The notes under the pieces were generated by a model. The model ran no database searches. It was not told the origin of the DNA and saw only the letters and a list, made by a program, of their open reading frames with translations. From Streptomyces sp. NBC_01233 (GTDB lineage Bacteria > Actinomycetota > Actinomycetes > Streptomycetales > Streptomycetaceae), in NCBI RefSeq assembly GCF_035989305.1, contig NZ_CP108514.1:9776501-9840500 (forward strand): a stretch of 64,000 nt of DNA, in the 5' to 3' direction. Positions 1 to 13,757 of this stretch are shown piece by piece (position 1 is the first letter of the stretch; each line of letters begins with the position of its first letter). Position numbers and translations under genes: made by a program.

Positions 1-1166
1 TCCCAGGAGTGGTGCAGCCCCGTGAACCGGTGGCCCGGCCCGACGGTGACCGCGGCCAGGAACACGCCGTCGGCCTGCCGGGCCGCCTCGACGCCGTGCA
101 CGGCGGCCACCCGGCCCGGCCCGGCCGAGAGGAACCGGACGGCGGCGCCGCCCTTCGCCCGCCGGGGCAGTTCGTCCGGCGGCTCCTCGCCCTTGAGCAC
201 CGCGTAGTAGCTGCGCAGGAGTTCCACCGGATAGGCCAGCTGGATGGTGTCGAGGATGCCGCCGCCGGGCAGCCGGCCCGCGCATTCCACGAGGTACGGG
301 ACGCCGTCCGGGACGATCCATTCGCAGTGGACGATCCCGTCGCGGAAGCCGACGGCTTCGACCAGCCGGGCCGTCTGCCCACCGAGCAGGTCCGCGAGCT
401 GCTGCGGGATGTCGGCCGGCACGGTGTGGGCCATCTCCACCGGGTGGGCTCCGGGGAACAGCTGTTTGCCCGTGACGTTGACGAAGAGCGCGCCGCCGTC
501 CCGTACGAGCATCTCGACGCTGTACTCGGGCCCCTCGACGTACTGTTCGGCCAGCATGGAGAGCTCCATGGGCCGGTCCGGCACGAAGACGCCCTCGTCC
601 TGGACGAGACAGTCCGCCCAGGCTCCCTCGACCTCGGCCGGGTCGTGGATCACCCGGGTGCCGACCGATGCCTGACGGTTCGCCGGCTTGAGCACGACCG
701 GGCCCGGCCGGCCGCGCAGGAAGGCCAGGACATCGGCCGGGTCCCGTACGGGGACACTGGCCGGGTTGGCGATGCCGGCGGCGGCGCTGACCCGCCGCAG
801 CAACGCCTTGTCGCGCAGGATCTGCGCGGCGCCGAGACCGGCGCCGGGCAGGCCGTAGCGCTCCGCGAGCCGGGCGGCGAACGGCGTCGCGTACTCGATG
901 GCGGGCACGACCGCCGCGGGGGCCAGTCCGGGGTGGGCGTTGAAGAACTCGTCGGCCTTTCCCGCGAGGTGGTACTCCCACTCGATCAGGCCGCGGACGA
1001 AGGCCACCCCGTCGATCTGGTCGCGTACCCCCCGCTTGCGGACGACGTCGGGCTCCTCGACGTAGACGACCGAGCCGTCCCCCTGGAACTCCCCGATGGC
1101 GGCCATCGTCACGCCGACGAAGCCGACGACCAGGACCGGCCCGTCCGTGGCGGGCCGCGCCTTCAC
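1..1166 (-). CDS. ATP-grasp ligase, 3' end outside the window
   Basis: Last gene seen of a five-gene minus-strand operon; about 388 codons are visible and the stop lies beyond base 1. The frame starts at a GTG (1164-1166) that overlaps the MFS stop as GTGA. Reading the minus strand gives an ATP-grasp protein: an N-terminal pre-ATP-grasp domain, VLKPANRQASVGTRV as the nucleotide-binding strand and loop, EYSVEMLV in the central subdomain, and VECAGRLPGGG, which corresponds to the metal-binding E-x-N-x-R segment with the Asn replaced by Ala. This family activates a carboxylate as acyl phosphate and couples it to an amine. Within the operon it would be expected to ligate an amino acid to the N-N or N-O product made by the upstream enzymes; that role is inferred from position. 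Substrate unknown. Confidence 0.85.
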   Translation of the reverse strand, partial: MKARPATDGPVLVVGFVGVTMAAIGEFQGDGSVVYVEEPDVVRKRGVRDQIDGVAFVRGLIEWEYHLAGKADEFFNAHPGLAPAAVVPAIEYATPFAARLAERYGLPGAGLGAAQILRDKALLRRVSAAAGIANPASVPVRDPADVLAFLRGRPGPVVLKPANRQASVGTRVIHDPAEVEGAWADCLVQDEGVFVPDRPMELSMLAEQYVEGPEYSVEMLVRDGGALFVNVTGKQLFPGAHPVEMAHTVPADIPQQLADLLGGQTARLVEAVGFRDGIVHCEWIVPDGVPYLVECAGRLPGGGILDTIQLAYPVELLRSYYAVLKGEEPPDELPRRAKGGAAVRFLSAGPGRVAAVHGVEAARQADGVFLAAVTVGPGHRFTGLHHSW

Positions 1167-2515
1167 GAGGCACCTCCGACGACTTCGGGCCTGCCCTCGT
1201 CCGCGTTCGCCTCCGGGTCCTCGGCGGGGGCCGGTTCGGGCGGTTGGCGTACGCCCGCCAGGGCGAGCAGCCCGGCGACGGCGGTCACGATGCCGCACAG
1301 CAGCCAGAAGCCGCTGCCGAGCGCGGTCCATGCGTAGACGCCGAACAGCGGGGCGACGGCGCCGGCCGCGCCGCCGACCGCCTGCATCGTGCCGATGTAG
1401 CGGGCCTTCACCGACGACGGGAACGTCGCCGGGTGTGCGAACATGCTCGGCGCGGCGATCATGATTCCGGACACCACCAGCACCGCGCCCGCGATCGTGA
1501 ACGCCCCGGACCGCGAGGACAGTCCGTAGACCGCGAGCCCGAGCGCCTCCACCAGGTGGCCGGTGATGACCCTGACGTGCTTGGGCAGTCTGCTGAGGTA
1601 AGCGGTGATCTTGAGCTCGCACGTGATCAGCACCACGGACGACACCGTGAGCACCGTGCTGTAGAAGCTGGTCGGGTAGTCGTCGGCGACCAGCTCCAGC
1701 GGCAGTGCGATGTGGCCCTGGGCGTAGGTGAGCGAGCCGAGCAGAACGGCGGCCAGATAGTAGAGGTACTTGCGGTCGCGCAGCATCGCCGCGTACCCCG
1801 AGCCGGTGCGCCGGGCCTCTTCGGCGCCGGCGCCCTTGCCGTCGGCCCCGGCGGAGGCCGCGCCGGCCGGTGCGGTTCCGCCCTCGGACGCGCCTTCCTC
1901 GTCGGCCCCGTCCTGCGCGGTCTGCTTCGGGAGCAGAGCGAAGGCCAGCAGCGCGTAGACCAGCGCGGTCCCGCCGTCGATCCAGAACAGCAGGTCCCAG
2001 TTGACCAGGATCAGCCCGGCGGCGATCAGCGGCGCCAGGGCCGCGCCGATGTTCAGCGCGATCCGCATCATCGAGAACGCCATGACCTGGTACCGGTCCG
2101 GCATCAGATCGCTCAGCATCACGGCCGCGGCCGGCCGGTACGCCTGCGTGAACAGGCCCGCCAGCCCGACGACGACGAGCAGCGGCCACAGCATCCCCGG
2201 CCCGCTCAGCCACGAGATCGCCGCCACCAGCGGGGCCGAACCGGCCATGGCCGTCACGATCGTGGCCCGGGGCCCGAACCGCTGGGTGAACTCACCGCCC
2301 AGCATCGTGCCGAAGACGGACCCCGCGCTGTAGGCGACCAGCGTCAGACCCGCGGCGGCCACCGACATGCCGCGGAAGGTCAGGTACAGCACGAGGAACG
2401 TCTGGACGAACGCGCCGAGCTGGTTGATCAGCACGCCCCCGAGGAGATACCGGACCGGTGCCGGGGTCGCCTTCAGCGCCTCGAACACACCGATCGGAGT
2501 GTCCTCCTTCTTCAT
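1163..2515 (-). CDS. MFS transporter of the N-hydroxylase operon
   Basis: A 450-residue, 12-helix major facilitator protein beginning MKKEDTPIGV, with a conserved first helix (RYLLGGVLINQLGAFVQTF), a GxxxGxxxxxR-type loop after TM2 and a long acidic and Ala-rich cytoplasmic loop between the two six-helix halves. The ATG at 2515 overlaps the stop of the oxidase gene as ATGA, and its own stop overlaps the ATP-grasp GTG, so it is translated in the operon. It resembles DHA1-type drug exporters. Its position suggests export of, or self-protection from, the operon's product; no substrate can be read from the sequence. Confidence 0.9.
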   Translation of the reverse strand: MKKEDTPIGVFEALKATPAPVRYLLGGVLINQLGAFVQTFLVLYLTFRGMSVAAAGLTLVAYSAGSVFGTMLGGEFTQRFGPRATIVTAMAGSAPLVAAISWLSGPGMLWPLLVVVGLAGLFTQAYRPAAAVMLSDLMPDRYQVMAFSMMRIALNIGAALAPLIAAGLILVNWDLLFWIDGGTALVYALLAFALLPKQTAQDGADEEGASEGGTAPAGAASAGADGKGAGAEEARRTGSGYAAMLRDRKYLYYLAAVLLGSLTYAQGHIALPLELVADDYPTSFYSTVLTVSSVVLITCELKITAYLSRLPKHVRVITGHLVEALGLAVYGLSSRSGAFTIAGAVLVVSGIMIAAPSMFAHPATFPSSVKARYIGTMQAVGGAAGAVAPLFGVYAWTALGSGFWLLCGIVTAVAGLLALAGVRQPPEPAPAEDPEANADEGRPEVVGGAS

Positions 2516-3582
2516 GCCGCTCCCTTCGTCAAGGCATCGACGATCCGCCCCGCGACGAGCGGGGCCTGACTGAAACCGGAGCCGCCGCAGGCCGCCCGCG
2601 ACCAGACGGCGGGCCCCACCCGGGCGAGCAGCGCACCGCCGGTGTCCGCGGCGCTCACGTAGTGGCACGGTTTCACCGCCGCCACGGTGTAGCGGTCCAG
2701 GCCGGCCAGCGGCGCCGCCCGGGCCAGCCGGGCCACCCAGGGCGACTGGTCCTCGTCCGCGCAGTCCGCGGTGGTGCCCGCGTCCCGGGACACGGCGTCG
2801 GAGCTGATCTTCAGGAGCGTGCCCTCGCCGGGTGGCATCACCCAGGCCCGCCCGTCCGCGCCGAGGCCGCCCGCCGCGGGCGCGCCCGCCCACCACCGTG
2901 CCGCGTCCGCGGGCGGCCGCAGGTACACCATGGTCTGGCGGTGCAGTACGACCGGATGGTCGACCAGATCGCGGGTCCACGGGCCGGCGGCGATCAGCAC
3001 CAGGTCGGCGCCGAGCTTCTCCCCGCCGGCCAGCAGGACGTGGGCCGAGTCGACGTCCACGTGCGTGACCGTGCTGTACGGCCGCAGGGCCACCGCGGGA
3101 TGTCCGGTCAGCCACCGGACCGCGGCCCGCAGGACCCGGTCCGCGAGCAGGACTCCGGCGTCGGCCTCGCGTACACCCGCCGAGCCGGCCGGGAACTCCA
3201 GGTACGGCAGGCGCTCCGGCTCCACCGTCTCCACGGACACGCCCGCCGCGGCAGCCGCGGTGGCCACCGCGGAGAGCTGCTCCCGCGGCCAGGCGGTCAC
3301 CACGCCCACGCGCCGGTAGAAGCCGGTGCCCAGCAGGGTCTGGAGTTCCAGCCACCGGCTCCGGGCGGCGGCCATCCGCCGGGTGGCGTCCGCGTCGTCC
3401 GGGCTGAAGGTGCGGATGACCCGGTGCTGGTCCGCCGAGCTCGACTCCGGATTGGGGATCGGGCCCCGGTCCAGCAGGGTCACGCGGTGGCCCGCGAGCG
3501 CGCATTCCACCGCGGTCAGCAGCCCGGTGACGCCCGCTCCCACGACGAGTACCTGCCGGGAGGCTGCCGCCGCCGCCCTCAC
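2512..3582 (-). CDS. FAD-dependent amine/amino-acid oxidase (DAO family)
   Basis: A 356-residue protein beginning VRAAAAASRQVLVVGAGV at a GTG that overlaps the upstream stop as GTGA. The dinucleotide-binding motif VVGAGVTGLLTA lies near residues 11-22, followed by an acidic end of strand 2 (LLDRG), a central substrate domain and the C-terminal GGSGFSQAP segment that closes over FAD in glycine and sarcosine oxidases. DAO-fold enzymes oxidise a C-N bond to an imine. In the s56-p1 (Spb38-40) and triacsin (Tri26-28) hydrazine pathways a related flavoenzyme releases hydrazinoacetate from the lysine-glycine N-N adduct. The co-location here with an N-hydroxylase and a MetRS-like protein supports the same kind of step. 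The catalytic assignment is inferred. Confidence 0.88.
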   Translation of the reverse strand: MRAAAAASRQVLVVGAGVTGLLTAVECALAGHRVTLLDRGPIPNPESSSADQHRVIRTFSPDDADATRRMAAARSRWLELQTLLGTGFYRRVGVVTAWPREQLSAVATAAAAAGVSVETVEPERLPYLEFPAGSAGVREADAGVLLADRVLRAAVRWLTGHPAVALRPYSTVTHVDVDSAHVLLAGGEKLGADLVLIAAGPWTRDLVDHPVVLHRQTMVYLRPPADAARWWAGAPAAGGLGADGRAWVMPPGEGTLLKISSDAVSRDAGTTADCADEDQSPWVARLARAAPLAGLDRYTVAAVKPCHYVSAADTGGALLARVGPAVWSRAACGGSGFSQAPLVAGRIVDALTKGAA

Positions 3583-5135
3583 GGCGCCGTCTCCGCCAGC
3601 CGTGGCAACCGTACGGGCGTGACCCGAGTGACGGGATCGGCGTCCGCGGCCCGCCGTGCGGCGGGGATCGCCGGGTCCGGGAAGGCCTCCCCGGCCAGAT
3701 CGATCAGGACCGGCCCCGCGCAGCGCAGGAACACCTCCACCTCGTGGCAGAAGTCGCCCGCGTCGTCGGGTCCCGCCTCCCACCGGTCCAGCCGCGCCAG
3801 CTGCTCGGACAGGGTGAAGGCCACCGCGGTCAGGCTGAACCGGCGGACGTCGTAGGCGGCGGAGAAACGTTCCAGCATGAGCCCGGCCGCGACCCTGGAC
3901 CGCTCGGACACCGGCAGCGGTCCCCGGTCCGTCCACGTGGCCACCTTGTCCGCCACCCGGTTCCACGGCCGCACGAGCCGTGCCCCGGTCACCTGATCCA
4001 GGGCCTCGCGGGTGAAGTTCGTGCGCTGGAAATCGGGGCTGGTCGCGGCGAGATAGAACCGGATGAGGTCCCTCGGCACCTCGGCGGCCAGCTCCCGCCC
4101 CGTCACGACGTGACCGCGGCTGGTGGAGAACTTGTCGTGGTCCAGCTCGTAGAACTCGTTGGTGACGAAGTGCCCGGGCAGGACGTAGCCGCCCAGTGCC
4201 AGCAGCATCGCGGCCCCGGCCACCGCGAAGGCGAAGCCGGCGTCGGAACCGAAGAAGTACACCACCTCGGAGCCCGCGTCGGAGAACCACAGCTCGTCGT
4301 CGGCGGCGAGCACCGCACCGCGGTGCTCGGCCGCCAGCGCGGTGCAGTGCATGCTCCACGCGATGGTCTCGGCGTCCGCGTAGATCACCTGGCCGACGAC
4401 CTCCGGGAAGGGCGCCGGGATGCCCCAGGCGATCGGCAGGGTGACGGGATAGTCCGGGAGCGGCCGGGAAAGGATCTCCTCGATCATCTGCGCCAGACGC
4501 GGCCGCATCGTCGCGCTCTGCTGCGCGAAGTACCCCACGAGGGCCTCGCGGTGGTCCTCCAGCGGCAGCACCAGCACCTGCTGCTCGCGCAGTTCCACCG
4601 GATCGTCGGGATCCAGGGTGGAGCGCGGTCCGATCAGGTCGCCGGAGGCGATCCAGTGCCCGCAGTTCTCGCACAGCCCGGCGCAGCCGTCGGCGAGGCA
4701 CACCGGGCAACCGCCCCGTACGTACGCATCCGTGAGGTACTCGCCCGTGCGCGGCGAGTACGGGAACCGCACCCCCTGCAGCCGGAGCTTGCCCGCGCTG
4801 TGCAGGCGCTCGAAGAAGTGCCGCACTGTCTTCACGTACCGGTCGCCGAACCGGACGAAACCGTCCGGCCGGATCCCCGCGGCCGCCAGGGTCTCCTCGA
4901 CCTGCCCGGCCGACCGCACGCGCAGGTCCTCCGGCTGCACGCCCAGCCTCCGTGCGGTCGTCACGATGTAGTTCTGCGTGAAGTGCACGCCCGTGCCGAA
5001 GAGCACGTCCCGGCCCGCGGCGCGCGCGTACCGCGCGCACACGTCCGCGGCCAGGAAGGGGCCGGCCAGGTGGCCCAGGTGCAAATCGCCGTTGGCGGTC
5101 GGTCCGGGGGCGATCACCACCAGGGTCCGCTTCAT
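3579..5135 (-). CDS. Methionyl-tRNA-synthetase-like protein, no fused cupin
   Basis: A 518-residue class I synthetase-like protein. It has an HLGH (HIGH) motif at residues 19-22 inside NGDLHLGHLAGPF, a cysteine cluster (C143, C146, C151, C155, C158) like the MetRS zinc knuckle, a Rossmann second half and a KMSKS-like KFSTS at 335-339. The C-terminus is a short helical anticodon-domain-like region; no EMAP or cupin domain follows. The ATG at 5135 overlaps the N-hydroxylase stop as ATGA. In bacterial hydrazine pathways MetRS-like domains adenylate an amino acid and transfer it to the hydroxylamine of N6-hydroxylysine, and an attached zinc cupin rearranges the ester to an N-N bond. Here the cupin is absent. 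A spare housekeeping MetRS is the alternative but fits the operon poorly. Confidence 0.85.
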   Translation of the reverse strand: MKRTLVVIAPGPTANGDLHLGHLAGPFLAADVCARYARAAGRDVLFGTGVHFTQNYIVTTARRLGVQPEDLRVRSAGQVEETLAAAGIRPDGFVRFGDRYVKTVRHFFERLHSAGKLRLQGVRFPYSPRTGEYLTDAYVRGGCPVCLADGCAGLCENCGHWIASGDLIGPRSTLDPDDPVELREQQVLVLPLEDHREALVGYFAQQSATMRPRLAQMIEEILSRPLPDYPVTLPIAWGIPAPFPEVVGQVIYADAETIAWSMHCTALAAEHRGAVLAADDELWFSDAGSEVVYFFGSDAGFAFAVAGAAMLLALGGYVLPGHFVTNEFYELDHDKFSTSRGHVVTGRELAAEVPRDLIRFYLAATSPDFQRTNFTREALDQVTGARLVRPWNRVADKVATWTDRGPLPVSERSRVAAGLMLERFSAAYDVRRFSLTAVAFTLSEQLARLDRWEAGPDDAGDFCHEVEVFLRCAGPVLIDLAGEAFPDPAIPAARRAADADPVTRVTPVRLPRLAETAP

Positions 5136-6418
5136 CGGGCGCTCCTGGGTTCGGTGACGGTTTCGCGGCGGGCGAGGAGGTCGGTGAGGATGTCGTGGGA
5201 GCGGTGGGCGAGGACGCTGATGAGGGAGTCGGCGATGCCGTGGGTCTCCTCGTTGACGCCTTGGAGGTAGACGGCGCCCCAGGCGGATTCGCCGAGGTCG
5301 ACGCGGTAGTTGCGGCTCACGGTGACCTCGTCGAGTCCGACCCGCGCCGCGAGGTCCCGTACGAGCGCGGGCTTGCGCGGGTCGTAGCCGGTGCCGAGCA
5401 GCACCAGGTCGCACCGCAGCGGCTCGATCTTGCCGCTGATCCGGTCCCGCAGATCGAGCACCACTTCGTCACCGTCGAGGCGGGCACCCACGACCTCGGT
5501 CATGGCCCGGACGGCCGACCGCTGCGGGCCGAGCATTTTCTCCCGGTAGAGCATCGTGTAGAGCTCGTCGAGGAACGGCGGCGCCACTCCCGCGTAGTTG
5601 GTGAACCGCATTTCGTCCAGGAGCTGCGAACGCACCTCCGGCGGACTGTCGTAGAACTCGTCGACGAAGGACGGGAAGAACAATTCGTTGACGAATTTGC
5701 TGGTCTGGTAGTTCTGCAGACCGATCGAGCGGACCACCATCGTCACCTGACTGGACGGCAGGTTCTCGCGCAATGCGAAGAACATCTCCGCGGCGCTCTG
5801 CGCTCCGCCCACGACCACGGCGCGAACGGGTTCGTCCTTCGGAATCCGTGCGATCCGCGTCCGGTACTGGGCACTGTGGACGAGCCGGTCCCCGGGGAGC
5901 GCGGCGAAGACGTCCGGCACCCGCGGATCGCGTCCGCCGCCGACCACCAGGTCGCGGCAGCGGATGGTGTCCCCGTCGGTGAGCCGCACGCTCCACCCGG
6001 ACACCGACCCGTCCGCCTCGCACACCGGGTCGATCTGCGCGGCGCGGGCGCCGTAGCGGATCTGGACCTGCTCCAGGGAGGCGGCGACCCACTGCAGGTA
6101 GTCGGAGAACTCCCACCGGAAGGGGTGGAAGGTCCCCAGGTTCACGAACTCGTCGAGCCGGCCCTGGGAATGGAGGAAATTGAGGAACGAGAACCTGCTG
6201 CTGGGATTCCGCAGCGTCACCAGGTCCTTGAGGAAGGACACCTGGCTGCGCGCCCACGGCATCAGCAGATCGCGCTGCCATTTGATGTCCGGGCTCTGCT
6301 CCAGCAGCAGGGTCCCGTCGGCCAGTTCGGTCGAACCCGACTCCTCGATGGCCACCGCGAGCGCCAGATTCGCCGGCCCCGCACCGATCGCCAGAACACC
6401 GACCTCCCGATCAGCCAC
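5132..6418 (-). CDS. L-lysine/L-ornithine N-monooxygenase (SidA/IucD/PvdA family)
   Basis: First gene of the operon, 428 residues, starting at GTG 6418 behind a GAGGGGGAA ribosome site. FAD motif IGAGPANLALAVA near residue 11, NADPH motif VVGGAQSAAEMFF in the middle, the family signature KFVNELFFPSFVDEFY, and LLGTGYDPRKP near the end match flavin-dependent N-hydroxylases of the side-chain amine of lysine or ornithine. These use FAD, NADPH and O2. Such enzymes usually feed hydroxamate siderophores, but no NRPS, IucA/C or acyltransferase follows; the MetRS-like and DAO-like neighbours instead match hydrazine pathways that begin with N6-hydroxylysine. Lysine versus ornithine cannot be decided by eye. 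Confidence 0.88.
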   Translation of the reverse strand: MADREVGVLAIGAGPANLALAVAIEESGSTELADGTLLLEQSPDIKWQRDLLMPWARSQVSFLKDLVTLRNPSSRFSFLNFLHSQGRLDEFVNLGTFHPFRWEFSDYLQWVAASLEQVQIRYGARAAQIDPVCEADGSVSGWSVRLTDGDTIRCRDLVVGGGRDPRVPDVFAALPGDRLVHSAQYRTRIARIPKDEPVRAVVVGGAQSAAEMFFALRENLPSSQVTMVVRSIGLQNYQTSKFVNELFFPSFVDEFYDSPPEVRSQLLDEMRFTNYAGVAPPFLDELYTMLYREKMLGPQRSAVRAMTEVVGARLDGDEVVLDLRDRISGKIEPLRCDLVLLGTGYDPRKPALVRDLAARVGLDEVTVSRNYRVDLGESAWGAVYLQGVNEETHGIADSLISVLAHRSHDILTDLLARRETVTEPRSAR

Positions 6419-6672
6419 ACTTCCCCCTCGATCACAGTGATCCGACTCACGGACAGGCAGTAGCGAGGCTAGATTTCCGCCGCTCCCGATCGATAGGGGA
6501 ACTTGTCCCTTCGACTGGGGAATCTCAGCGGGGAAATCGGTGCCGCCGGCTCAAGCGGTCTGATAAACATGGCTCGCTGCGCACCGGTCCTCGCACCGAC
6601 CGCCGCTGCGATCCCCGCACCGACCGCCGTGGCGCCCGCCCCGAGGCGCCCTCACGAGAGTCGCCCCGCACG
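6419..6672. promoter_or_regulatory. Divergent control region of the hydroxylase operon and the araC wreck
   Basis: 254 bases separate the N-hydroxylase GTG from the ATG of the broken AraC gene. A perfect palindrome GATCAC-A-GTGATC sits at 6430-6442, only 12 bases upstream of the hydroxylase start, and could be an operator or part of the leader. No convincing -10/-35 pair was identified on either strand. Divergent placement of an AraC gene next to a biosynthetic operon is the usual arrangement for a pathway regulator. Confidence 0.4.
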
Positions 6673-7228
6673 ATGACGGATGACCACCACTGGCTCCGGC
6701 CCGGGATGGCGGCCGCCGTCCCGCTCGACGAACCGCCCGCCGTCGTGAGCATCGGGGTCGGGCTGCACGGGGTCACCAGCGCGCTCGACGTATTCCGGCT
6801 GCCGGGCCTGTGGCAGCTGCACCTGTACCGGTACGCCGCCGAACTCACCGTCGGCGGGGTGCCGCACGCCATCCGGCCGGGCCATGTGAGCCTCGTACCG
6901 CCGGGCGCGGTGGTGCGCTACCGCTACCGCTACCGGGGCCGCTCCGAGCACCTGTACGCCCACCTGCGGCTGCCCGGAGCCGAGGAGGCGAGGCCGGCGA
7001 GCCGCGCTCCGGCGGGCCGCGGGCCGTGCCCGTGGTCCAGGACGCCGGGGCAGGGACCCCCGTCCTCTCCGAGCTCCTGCTGCGCGCCATCGCCGCCGCC
7101 CCGGGCGCCCCGCGCCGGGCGGACGCCGAGGTGTGGGGGGCGCTGTGGCGGGTCGCCGGGCCCGCCGGCCCCGGCGCCCGACCGCACGCCTCGGCGGCGG
7201 CAGCCATCGCCTCCGTCGAGTCCCACCG
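6673..7228 (+). pseudogene. AraC-family regulator, frameshifted and lacking its HTH
   Basis: The ATG at 6673 opens an AraC-type effector domain: residues 1-105 contain WQLHLYRYAAELTVGG, then LVPPGAVVRYRYRYRG and SEHLYAHLRLP, typical of the cupin-like sensor half. The frame breaks at about 6985-7010. The correct continuation (AVPVVQDAG, then SELLLRAIAAAPG and EVWGALWRVAG) lies in the -1 frame and reaches AAAAIASVESH, the usual entry into the AraC HTH. At about 7228 it stops abruptly and joins reversed alpha-fucosidase sequence, so both helix-turn-helix motifs are missing. It therefore cannot bind DNA as an AraC protein. It lies divergent to the hydroxylase operon, which may have lost its regulator. 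Confidence 0.75.
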
Positions 7229-7325
7229 TCCTCGCGGGGTCCGGGCCCGAGCAGGAGATTGCCTCCCATGCCGATCGTCTCGGTGAAGTGGCGCACGAGC
7301 CGGTGCACCGACTTGTGCCTAGGCC
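7228..7325 (-). pseudogene. Alpha-L-fucosidase remnant (GH29-like tail)
   Basis: On the minus strand about 30 codons read KSVHRLVRHFTETIGMGG and then GNLLLGPGPREDG, which matches the conserved segment near the end of the GH29 alpha-L-fucosidase catalytic domain (normally GNLLLNVGPxxDG). No start, no upstream domain and no continuation were found in any frame to about 7600. It abuts the truncated AraC gene, so the two were joined by a deletion or rearrangement. Assignment rests on this one motif. Confidence 0.55.
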
Positions 7326-7637
7326 GGGGCCCCCGCGGAGCGCGTGGGACCGGATCACCGGCCGTGGTCGGTCCTCACCCCGTGGCCGGGGGGCTCGGCA
7401 GCGAATTGACGGATGTCGGCAGCGCGTTGCAGCGACCTTCTCGAACAGGGCTCCGTCGAACTGCCCCACGGCCACCGGGCTCCGATGCCTCCGAACGGGG
7501 GCCGACGGGACACCCCTTCGAGGGAACCGGCGGCCTGAACCACGTCGGGCGGCCGTGAGCTGCCGAATGAAAGGGGGCGGCCCCCTCGGGGCCGCGCGGT
7601 GCTCCGGCATCGCTGTGCGGTTACAAGGAGATGTCAC
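7326..7637. other. Non-coding stretch upstream of the chaplin
   Basis: No frame on either strand shows recognisable protein sequence. An 8-bp GC hairpin with a 3-base loop (7577-7595) lies 43 bases before the chaplin start and may end transcripts coming from the left or be part of the chaplin leader. AAGGAG at 7625-7630 is the chaplin ribosome site. Confidence 0.5.
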
Positions 7638-7877
7638 GTGTCGCGTGTTCTGAAGAGTGCCGGTCTTGCCCTGGTGATGAGCCTGGCGGTCATCGGCGGT
7701 GCGTCCTCGGCGTCGGCGGACGCCAAGGCGGAGGGCGCCGCGATCGGCTCGCCCGGTGTCCTCTCGGGCAACCTGATCCAGATCCCGATCCACGTTCCGA
7801 GCAACCTGTGCGGGAACAGCGTCAACGTGATCGGCGCGCTCAACCCGACCGCCGGCAACGTCTGCGTCAACGCCTGA
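7638..7877 (+). CDS. Short chaplin
   Basis: A 79-residue secreted protein. The GTG at 7638 follows AAGGAG by 7 bases. A Sec signal peptide (VLKSAGLALVMSLAVIGG) ends at about residue 28 (SASA-DA), leaving roughly 50 residues that form one chaplin domain: GSPGVLSGNLIQIPIHVP, two cysteines in NLCGN and GNVCVN, and the GN/VN repeats. Lengths and cysteines fit the short chaplin class (ChpD-H), which assembles amyloid fibrils on aerial hyphae and lowers surface tension. There is no C-terminal sorting signal. Which paralogue it is cannot be fixed by eye. Confidence 0.95.
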   Translation: MSRVLKSAGLALVMSLAVIGGASSASADAKAEGAAIGSPGVLSGNLIQIPIHVPSNLCGNSVNVIGALNPTAGNVCVNA

Positions 7878-12568: not shown

Positions 12569-13757
12569 GTGGCCCGGATCTGGGCAGGAACGGACATCGG
12601 CAAGAGCCACCACCATTGCGTGGTCCTGAACGCCGAAGGCGAGCGACTGCTGTCGCGGCGCGTGCTGAACGACGAGCCGGAGCTTCTCTCTCCTCGGGGA
12701 CGTCCTGGCTCTGGACGAAGACGTGGTCTGGGCCGTCGATGTCGCCGACAGCACGGCCGCTTTGTGGATCAGCGTGCTGCTCAACCACGGCCAGCGGCTC
12801 GTCTACATTCCGGGCCTCGCGGTCAACCGTGCGTCCGCCGGCTACCGGGGCATGGGCAAGACCGACGCCAAGGACGCCACCGTTATCGCCGACCAGGCCC
12901 GAATGCGCAGGGACCTGGCTGTCCTGCGGTCGGAAGACGAACTCACCATCGAGCTGAAGATACTCACCAACCGGCGAGCCGACCTGAACGCCGACCGCAC
13001 CCGCCGGATCAACCGTCTGCGTGGTCAACTCAACACCATCTTCCCGGCATTGGAACGCGTCCTTGATCTGGGCAACGTCGGCCCGCTGATCCTGCTGACC
13101 GGCTACCAGACCCCGGCTGCCCTGCGGCGCGTCGGCCGCAAACGGCTGGAGACCTGGCTGCGCAATCGCAAGGTCCGCAGCCCCGAAACCCTTGCCGCAG
13201 CCGCTCTGGAGGCTGCCGAGCGCCAGGCCACCGCCGTCCCCGGGGAGAAGATCGCCTCGCAGGTGATCCACACCCTGGCGAAGGAGGTGATGAGCCTCAA
13301 TGAGCAGATCGCCGAGATCGACAAGCTCATTGCGGCCCGGTTTCGCGAACACGACCTGGCCGAAGTGATCGAGAGCATGCCCGGCATCGGCCCCTTGCTG
13401 GGTGCCGAGTTCCTGGCCGCCACGGGCGGCGACATGAGCCGCTACGCAGACTCCGGCCGTCTGGCCAGCCTGGCCGGGGTCGCTCCGGTCCCACGCGATT
13501 CCGGCAACGTCAGCGGCAACCTGCACCGGCCCCGGCGTTACCACCGCGGCCTGCAACGCGTCTTCTGCACCTCCGCGCTCATCAGCATCCGCAACTGCGA
13601 CGCGTCGCGGCGCTTCTACGAACGCAAGCGCGGCGAAGGCAAACGGCACACCCAGGCCGTCCTCGCGTTGGCGAGGCGACGGGTCAACGTCCTCTGGGCC
13701 TTGATCCGTGACGGACGGTGCTACGAGCATGGACTCTCCGCTCCTGCTGCCGCTTGA
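12569..13757 (+). pseudogene. IS110 transposase (DEDD plus Tnp20), one frameshift
   Basis: GTG 12569 follows GGAGGA. The first 40 codons (WAGTDIGKSHHHCVVLNAEG) give the RuvC-like start with its first catalytic Asp. The frame must shift by +1 near 12687 to continue as LLGDVLALDEDVVWAVDVAD, then through GKTDAKDATVIAD to the C-terminal Tnp20 domain (SMPGIGPLLGAEFLAATGG, LASLAGVAPVPRDSG with its serine). In one frame it would be about 396 residues, the family's normal size. As read, the enzyme is split between two frames and probably inactive, unless the break is a sequencing error. Confidence 0.88.

Follow-up and report, generated by a model that had tools for sequence, protein, structure and literature searches.

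Where is the cupin of a putative hydrazine synthetase whose other module, a protein resembling methionyl-tRNA synthetase (MetRS), is encoded without one? This question is raised by the left end of the window analysed here, a stretch of 64,000 nucleotides from Streptomyces sp. NBC_01233 (bases 9776501-9840500 of contig 1; genome 10.34 Mb). A sequence-only reading of this window had described a cupin-less operon of hydrazine type with genes for an N-hydroxylase, a standalone MetRS-like protein, a D-amino-acid oxidase (DAO)-type flavin adenine dinucleotide (FAD) oxidase, a major facilitator superfamily (MFS) exporter and an ATP-grasp ligase. Domain matches and start codons confirmed all five genes in this order and on the given strand, and 4-nt overlaps at the N-hydroxylase/MetRS, MetRS/DAO, DAO/MFS and MFS/ATP-grasp junctions therefore identify them as an operon. 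The window edge falls inside the ATP-grasp gene and splits the cluster, whose minus-strand genes continue leftward. The term cupin-less turned out to be wrong: the cluster does encode a standalone cupin, about 8 kb left of window base 1 and 11.6 kb from the MetRS-like gene.

Enzymes able to link two nitrogen atoms are few, and the range they cover limits the products that can be made biologically. In the known systems, a MetRS-like protein joins an amino acid and N6-hydroxylysine as an unstable ester, which a zinc cupin, either fused or standalone, rearranges to form the N-N bond (PMC8664883). The cluster of this soil bacterium very probably joins two nitrogen atoms with the same two-protein machine, and its gene set strongly supports N-N bond formation. 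Overall, we assign a probability of roughly 0.78 to the reading that a split ATP-dependent hydrazine synthetase pathway is fused here to a 2-methyltryptophan pathway. The hydrazine-type pathway of the earlier reading is supported by the MetRS-like/cupin pair, the N-hydroxylase and the shared occurrence described below.

The MetRS-like protein and its cupin partner

Among solved structures, the MetRS-like protein matched 9l8v/9vq4 best by sequence (175 bits), followed by Pyrococcus MetRS (121 bits) and other MetRS (at most 96 bits). Foldseek searches with a model of the protein (mean predicted local distance difference test score, pLDDT, 81.9) returned 9l8v chains at ranks 1-3, which in the naming used by Foldseek represent the C-terminal domain of PyrN with L-glutamyl-sulfamoyl-adenosine. 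A fused cupin domain occurred in none of the 120 closest listed of 969 relatives (Pfam lists), whereas PF07883 was found in 120/120 listed relatives of a fused enzyme. The two modules are separate genes, which does not exclude a hydrazine synthetase, since standalone pairs are among the published members of the family (PMC8664883). HxGH was present in 119/120 and KFS[TS]S[RK] in 120/120 of the listed relatives, and in a tree of 42 rows, selected from sequences at hand, three housekeeping MetRS split from the remainder at 100/100. Grouping with housekeeping MetRS, which would have counted against the sequence-only reading, is thus not seen, and a housekeeping identity was rejected on this split; class I motifs combined with such a separation are what a hydrazine synthetase MetRS-like module displays. 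Within the tree, the protein falls inside the clade of the T-type clusters (100/99; cluster types are described below) beside the B-type proteins, with a joint branch at 90/81.

We then compared two sites that correspond to Asp52 and Trp253, which line the amino-acid pocket of Escherichia coli MetRS. Asp and Trp occupy these sites in the three housekeeping MetRS, in the fused enzymes compared and in a second MetRS-like copy of this genome (locus L098), while the T clade has His and Asp, the B-type proteins Gln and Asn (Gln and Arg in L032) and PyrN Val and Ala. The pocket is accordingly unlike that of the fused enzymes L069-L071 and L080 (His/Asp versus Asp/Trp); a carrier domain was detected in L070, L071 and L080. 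Carrier-bearing fused enzymes were taken as glycine type by the architecture described for N-nitroglycine (PMC13274452) and azaserine (PMC10445470). As the pocket differs from both the glycine-type enzymes and PyrN, we infer that the MetRS-like protein probably uses some amino acid other than glycine. The glutamate-using PyrN lacks Asp52 too, so the loss of this residue was rejected as proving a non-alpha-amino substrate; a pocket His common to PyrN in one pairwise alignment was dropped when it did not hold in the multiple alignment.

The solved proteins closest to the cupin by sequence were 4rd7, 4mv2 and, in third place, RHS1 (5uqp); for this standalone cupin, N-N bond formation has been demonstrated (PMC8664883). 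The same proteins lead by fold, with RHS1 chains at ranks 4-5 (model mean pLDDT 77.9). The metal motif reads HxHx3E with a further His 34 residues on, and the same Glu-to-His spacing is found in RHS1 (E69/H103) and PyrN (E56/H90; numbering of PMC8664883). The first metal ligand is His, as in PyrN (H50), compared to Asp63 in RHS1. With its invariant Glu and its metal-ligand spacing, the motif is that of a putative zinc cupin. HxHx3E followed by His 33-36 residues on was present in 97/100 cupin relatives, the three misses being 78, 98 and 185 aa long, and the cupin domains of nine fused enzymes matched a profile of the standalone cupin at 1.4e-10 to 5.2e-16. 4rd7 (Salinispora arenicola) and 4mv2 (plu4264, Photorhabdus) are orphan structural-genomics cupins; they may form N-N bonds as well, which would suggest a function for both.

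The MetRS-like protein and the cupin also occur together. All 26 genomes behind the 26 named loci, which came from a scan with the MetRS-like protein, contained a cupin relative (E<=1e-10). Among 392 same-genus genomes, cupin relatives (E<=1e-15) were found at 21 places in 18 genomes and MetRS-like relatives (E<=1e-110) at 21 places in the identical 18 genomes, where the latter cut was chosen after seeing a gap from 1.8e-115 to 2.7e-99. At E 1e-50, MetRS-like matches appeared in 60 genomes, of which the 42 beyond the cut had no cupin at 1e-15; a weaker cupin relative was present near many of the loci read from those 42 genomes. In 18/21 cases the cupin and MetRS-like genes are neighbours, and the other three pairs, all from T-type genomes, lie about 12 kb apart. 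Because cupin and MetRS-like protein share genomes, and because a rare operator precedes both, the cupin is, as judged from sequence, the partner of the MetRS-like protein in a predicted split hydrazine synthetase.

Conservation of the cluster and its tandem operator

The order MetRS-DAO-MFS-ATP-grasp ligase A recurred in 15/26 named loci, nine of these with the N-hydroxylase directly upstream, and the arrangement is therefore not due to chance. Sixteen of the 26 loci were classified as T-type, 15 of them with this order; in the remaining one (Kutzneria, L024), ligase A follows the gene for a TsrM-type tryptophan 2-C-methyltransferase. Wherever the DNA extends that far, T-type clusters continue with ligase B, flavin monooxygenases 1 and 2 (FMO1, FMO2) and TsrM. 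TsrM was present in 13/16 T-type loci, and the other three stop before or within it. The N-hydroxylase gene lies upstream, between the ligases, or in both positions, varying by genus. The T-type cluster is conserved in Streptomyces, Actinacidiphila, Kitasatospora and Kutzneria. Another 8/26 loci were B-type, with the order N-hydroxylase-MetRS-DAO-ligase B-berberine bridge enzyme (BBE)-type oxidase and without TsrM, and came from Micromonospora, Dactylosporangium, Amycolatopsis, Actinokineospora and Pseudosporangium. In 7/8 of these, the cupin gene sits between those of the N-hydroxylase and the MetRS-like protein (9 kb off in L029), and five have an FMO2 relative. The two remaining loci (L034, L036) are more distant. 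Relatives of ligase B occurred in 24/26 loci, both exceptions being 6-kb contigs.

Two copies of a tandem inverted repeat, TTCCC-N(6-9)-GGGA-N4-TTCCC-N(6-9)-GGGA, precede the N-hydroxylase A/MetRS operon and the cupin, each followed by CTAGCCT. Exactly two matches to this operator pattern exist in the 10.34-Mb genome, both in the cluster, and the reversed control gave 0 matches. As the pattern was chosen after both sites had been seen, this count measures rarity, and other genomes provide the independent test: matches occurred in 14/30 chosen genomes, all among the 19 with T-type clusters, and in 0/11 with other cluster types. Two further genomes (G199, G269) have exactly two matches each, with the one at G199 C1:7961628 located at the expected place. 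Altogether 33 operator rows were listed, of which G392 C1:1354005 and G393 C39:1019 belong to draft genomes and stood outside the neighbour check. The cupin-side copy is able to form a strong hairpin. The LuxR-type protein of the cluster presumably binds the operator, which could be a cluster-specific handle for switching the genes on.

Proposed pathway and competing explanations

The TsrM-type protein scored 1019.5 bits against a curated equivalog cut-off of 500 bits for tryptophan 2-C-methyltransferase, and aligned to KsTsrM (6wte) over residues 5-566 without gaps (1018 bits), keeping the equivalents of CX3CX2C, Arg69 and Glu273 discussed in PMC8992657. At E<=1e-100, TsrM matched four of the 392 genomes. 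Three of them (our genome, G199 and G269; 92-100%) are exactly those with a T-type MetRS-like protein in this set, and the fourth is G066 (58%). FMO1 and FMO2 resemble Rv3094c, HsaA and XiaF, the latter being an indole hydroxylase. They are encoded as a tandem pair with a DNA identity of 80.9%. One B-type cluster pairs an FMO-like gene with a flavin reductase (L028:15689-16186); no flavin reductase was present among the T-cluster proteins searched. The cluster has its dedicated N-hydroxylase, as expected of a hydrazine synthetase pathway, and the DAO is a conserved partner of the split enzymes, matching the DAOs beside three other MetRS-like genes at 7e-16 to 6e-21 (L062, L073, L083). No solved relative of the DAO was found at 1e-8, and named oxidases matched only below the cut-off.

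From the observed gene content, family membership, catalytic motifs, co-occurrence and shared operator, the following route can be proposed. The N-hydroxylase would make N6-hydroxylysine (or N5-hydroxyornithine), the standalone MetRS-like protein would adenylate an amino acid and transfer it to the hydroxylamine oxygen, and the standalone zinc cupin, whose gene stands at the far end of the cluster behind a copy of the same operator, would convert the resulting unstable ester to the N-N bond. The DAO-type oxidase would then remove the lysine part by C-N cleavage and release a free hydrazino acid, for which Spb39 is the precedent (PMC11705231). These four steps are modelled on published relatives. 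More tentatively, TsrM might provide 2-methyltryptophan, whose indole (or the hydrazine) could be oxidised by the two HsaA/XiaF-like flavoproteins; the ATP-grasp ligases could couple the parts via amide or hydrazide bonds, two ligases implying two such bonds, and the BBE oxidase and the MFS protein might finish and export the product. The identity of the substrate belongs to this weaker part of the proposal.

Several observations weigh against this reading. Of the two best solved matches of the N-hydroxylase, the ornithine enzyme PvdA (296 bits) outscores the lysine enzyme MbtG (252 bits). The DAO belongs to the same superfamily as those beside azaserine-type fused enzymes, with a best match of 4e-4 (L071, L080), and given this weak likeness the side of cleavage is not certain. 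The nearest solved cupins, 4rd7 and 4mv2, have no known function and are well ahead of RHS1, and the PyrN branch in the MetRS-like tree is long and unsurely placed. Finally, 5/7 Kitasatospora genomes have no exact operator match; the Kitasatospora loci L093-L095 lack the operator before the cupin and carry a looser form before the N-hydroxylase.

The foremost competitor, which we regard as improbable, is an azaserine-like pathway, in which glycine would be converted to hydrazinoacetic acid and the acyl-CoA-dehydrogenase-like flavoproteins would oxidise the N-N group (to a hydrazone, diazo or nitramine) instead of an indole. The azs cluster likewise encodes an N-hydroxylase, an FAD oxidoreductase, an MFS protein, an ATP-grasp enzyme, an acyl-CoA-dehydrogenase-like protein and a LuxR protein (PMC10445470), and relatives of ligase A (34-36%) and of the MFS exporter (33-34%) adjoin three fused enzymes (L069, L075, L078). 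However, azs uses a fused three-domain enzyme and non-ribosomal peptide synthetase (NRPS) machinery, and the part of its gene table covered lists no tryptophan methyltransferase (PMC10445470), while among the cluster proteins searched here we found no match to carrier proteins, NRPS or saccharopine dehydrogenase. The pocket also differs, with His and Asp where the fused enzymes compared have Asp and Trp, and such a pathway would leave the TsrM gene without a role.

Less probable still are two unrelated functions side by side, that is, a hydrazine pathway next to an independent route to 2-methyltryptophan that has a ligase and oxygenases to itself. B-type clusters, in which the hydrazine genes are accompanied by ligase B and BBE but not by TsrM, would be compatible with such a division. 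Yet the two sets are interleaved by overlapping genes (ligase A, N-hydroxylase B, ligase B, FMO1), the gene set is kept across the four named genera, and the same operator stands before the operon that holds both sets and before the cupin operon.

As to the N-N step itself, the sequence-only reading had left a choice between a trans-acting cupin, a different N-N step and a stable O-acyl hydroxylamine, of which the first is supported and the other two are not. A route that needs no cupin and stops at a stable O-acyl hydroxylamine would agree with the missing fusion in the 120 closest listed relatives, but it is highly improbable: every clade genome examined has a cupin partner (26/26; 18/18), and high instability is reported for the PyrN ester (PMC8664883). 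Cupin-free chemistry was rejected with the cupin found left of the window. An ordinary hydroxamate siderophore cluster, to which the family of the N-hydroxylase might point, has next to no likelihood and was rejected, as reading leftward revealed no siderophore synthetase and no match to NRPS, NRPS-independent siderophore (NIS) synthetase or acyltransferase among the proteins encoded in the conserved 16.6 kb.

The preferred reading, a split hydrazine synthetase joined to 2-methyltryptophan formation, has parallels in published standalone pairs (PMC8664883; albofungin, PMC11705231, PMC9469721), so that the N-N machine is known, while the cluster itself is apparently undescribed. The RHS1 system of Rhodococcus jostii RHA1 shares the separate MetRS-like protein and zinc cupin, an N-hydroxylase gene (for lysine there) and the Glu-to-His spacing. 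Its amino acid is glutamate, however, and a saccharopine-dehydrogenase partner led to the discovery of its cluster (PMC8664883); our cluster has a DAO-type partner, a pocket unlike that of PyrN, a TsrM arm and a cupin gene distant from the MetRS gene. Albofungin afn8/afn9/afn18 (abf orfDEF, abf6) comprise a separate MetRS-like protein, cupin, FAD oxidoreductase and lysine hydroxylase (PMC11705231, PMC9469721), a likeness by description, not by sequence; there, an asparagine-synthase-like enzyme puts the hydrazine on a polyketide, and no such gene is present here. PyrN, Spb40, Tri28, AzsN and NngM combine the same two catalytic modules with an N-hydroxylase, but as fused cupin-MetRS enzymes, some with a carrier domain; Spb39, NngL and AzsM are FAD oxidase partners of fused enzymes, as the DAO is here of the split one. 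TsrM of the thiostrepton pathway (6wte) has the catalytic residues in common with our protein. Its known role is in thiostrepton; here a TsrM-type enzyme stands in a pathway with no thiopeptide gene among the cluster proteins searched. Together with the two flavin monooxygenases and the second ATP-grasp ligase, all encoded left of the window, TsrM distinguishes the cluster from the pathways named in the sequence-only reading. Searches of open PMC papers listed no report linking 2-methyltryptophan or TsrM with a hydrazine pathway. We consider it an even chance that the cluster stands for an undescribed, NRPS-free class of natural products in which a split hydrazine synthetase of new amino-acid specificity and ATP-grasp coupling of the N-N unit to an oxidised 2-methyltryptophan are placed under one operator. 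The standalone pair, with a pocket unlike those of the glycine-type enzymes and PyrN, lies in a compact cluster that could be moved as a whole.

Layout of the cluster and neighbouring features

On the left side, 11 loci (L087-L097) were compared: cupin, LuxR, TsrM and the small protein were each present in 11/11 and BBE in 10/11. BBE was missing only from Kutzneria L092, where the gene order is altered too. On the right side, no upstream gene family besides the N-hydroxylase was common to more than five of 13 T-type loci plus our own.

Table 1 Features of the cluster. Plain positions refer to the window; L007 is the stretch that continues left of base 1 (window position = L007 position minus 18000).
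Feature	Position	Strand	Remarks
Tandem operator copy 1	6484..6522	-	upstream of N-hydroxylase A; then TCTAGCCT
N-hydroxylase A (Lys/Orn N-monooxygenase family)	5132..6418	-	PF13434, 2.4e-86
MetRS-like protein, standalone	3579..5135	-	PF09334, 1.9e-59; motifs HLGH and KFSTSR
DAO-type FAD oxidase	2512..3582	-	PF01266, 5e-27
MFS exporter	1163..2515	-	PF07690, 9e-32
ATP-grasp ligase A (L-amino acid ligase type)	1..1166; whole gene L007:17895-19166	-	PF13535 and LAL_C2
N-hydroxylase B	L007:16615-17898	-	
ATP-grasp ligase B	L007:15317-16615	-	
Flavin monooxygenase 1 (FMO1)	L007:14070-15320	-	start possibly 15284
Flavin monooxygenase 2 (FMO2)	L007:12836-14047	-	
TsrM-type tryptophan 2-C-methyltransferase	L007:11074-12795	-	B12/radical-SAM protein
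LuxR-type regulator	L007:10112-10879	-	
Tandem operator copy 2	L007:10041-10080		precedes cupin
Standalone zinc-type cupin	L007:9579-9998	-	start possibly 9947
Small conserved protein	L007:9259-9582	-	107 aa; without Pfam family
BBE-type FAD oxidase	L007:7853-9262	-	

N-hydroxylase copies A and B share a DNA identity of 93.5% here, 99.0% in G269, 93.1% in L014 and 90.7% in L015, and copies from different genomes are about 72-91% alike. This suggests that the copies have been homogenised by gene conversion, with the weakest case in L015.

The small protein accompanies T-type and B-type clusters as well as a second locus of this genome (21/87 loci searched, a set with many short or overlapping members); it had no solved relative by fold (best E 0.23). 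This second split hydrazine synthetase locus (L098; contig 1, 4632001-4652000) encodes an N-hydroxylase, a cupin, a MetRS-like protein about 50% identical to the first, an MFS protein, ATP-grasp ligases and a DAO, and in addition two proteins weakly like arginine deiminase/dimethylarginine dimethylaminohydrolase (DDAH), the small protein and a solute-binding protein. To the right of the operon, a plus-strand frame at window positions 6673-7653 starts out resembling an AraC-type regulator (sensor half) before it apparently loses its frame (judged by eye from the list of open reading frames), and two overlapping plus-strand frames at 12569-13757 resemble, likewise by eye, an IS110-type transposase.

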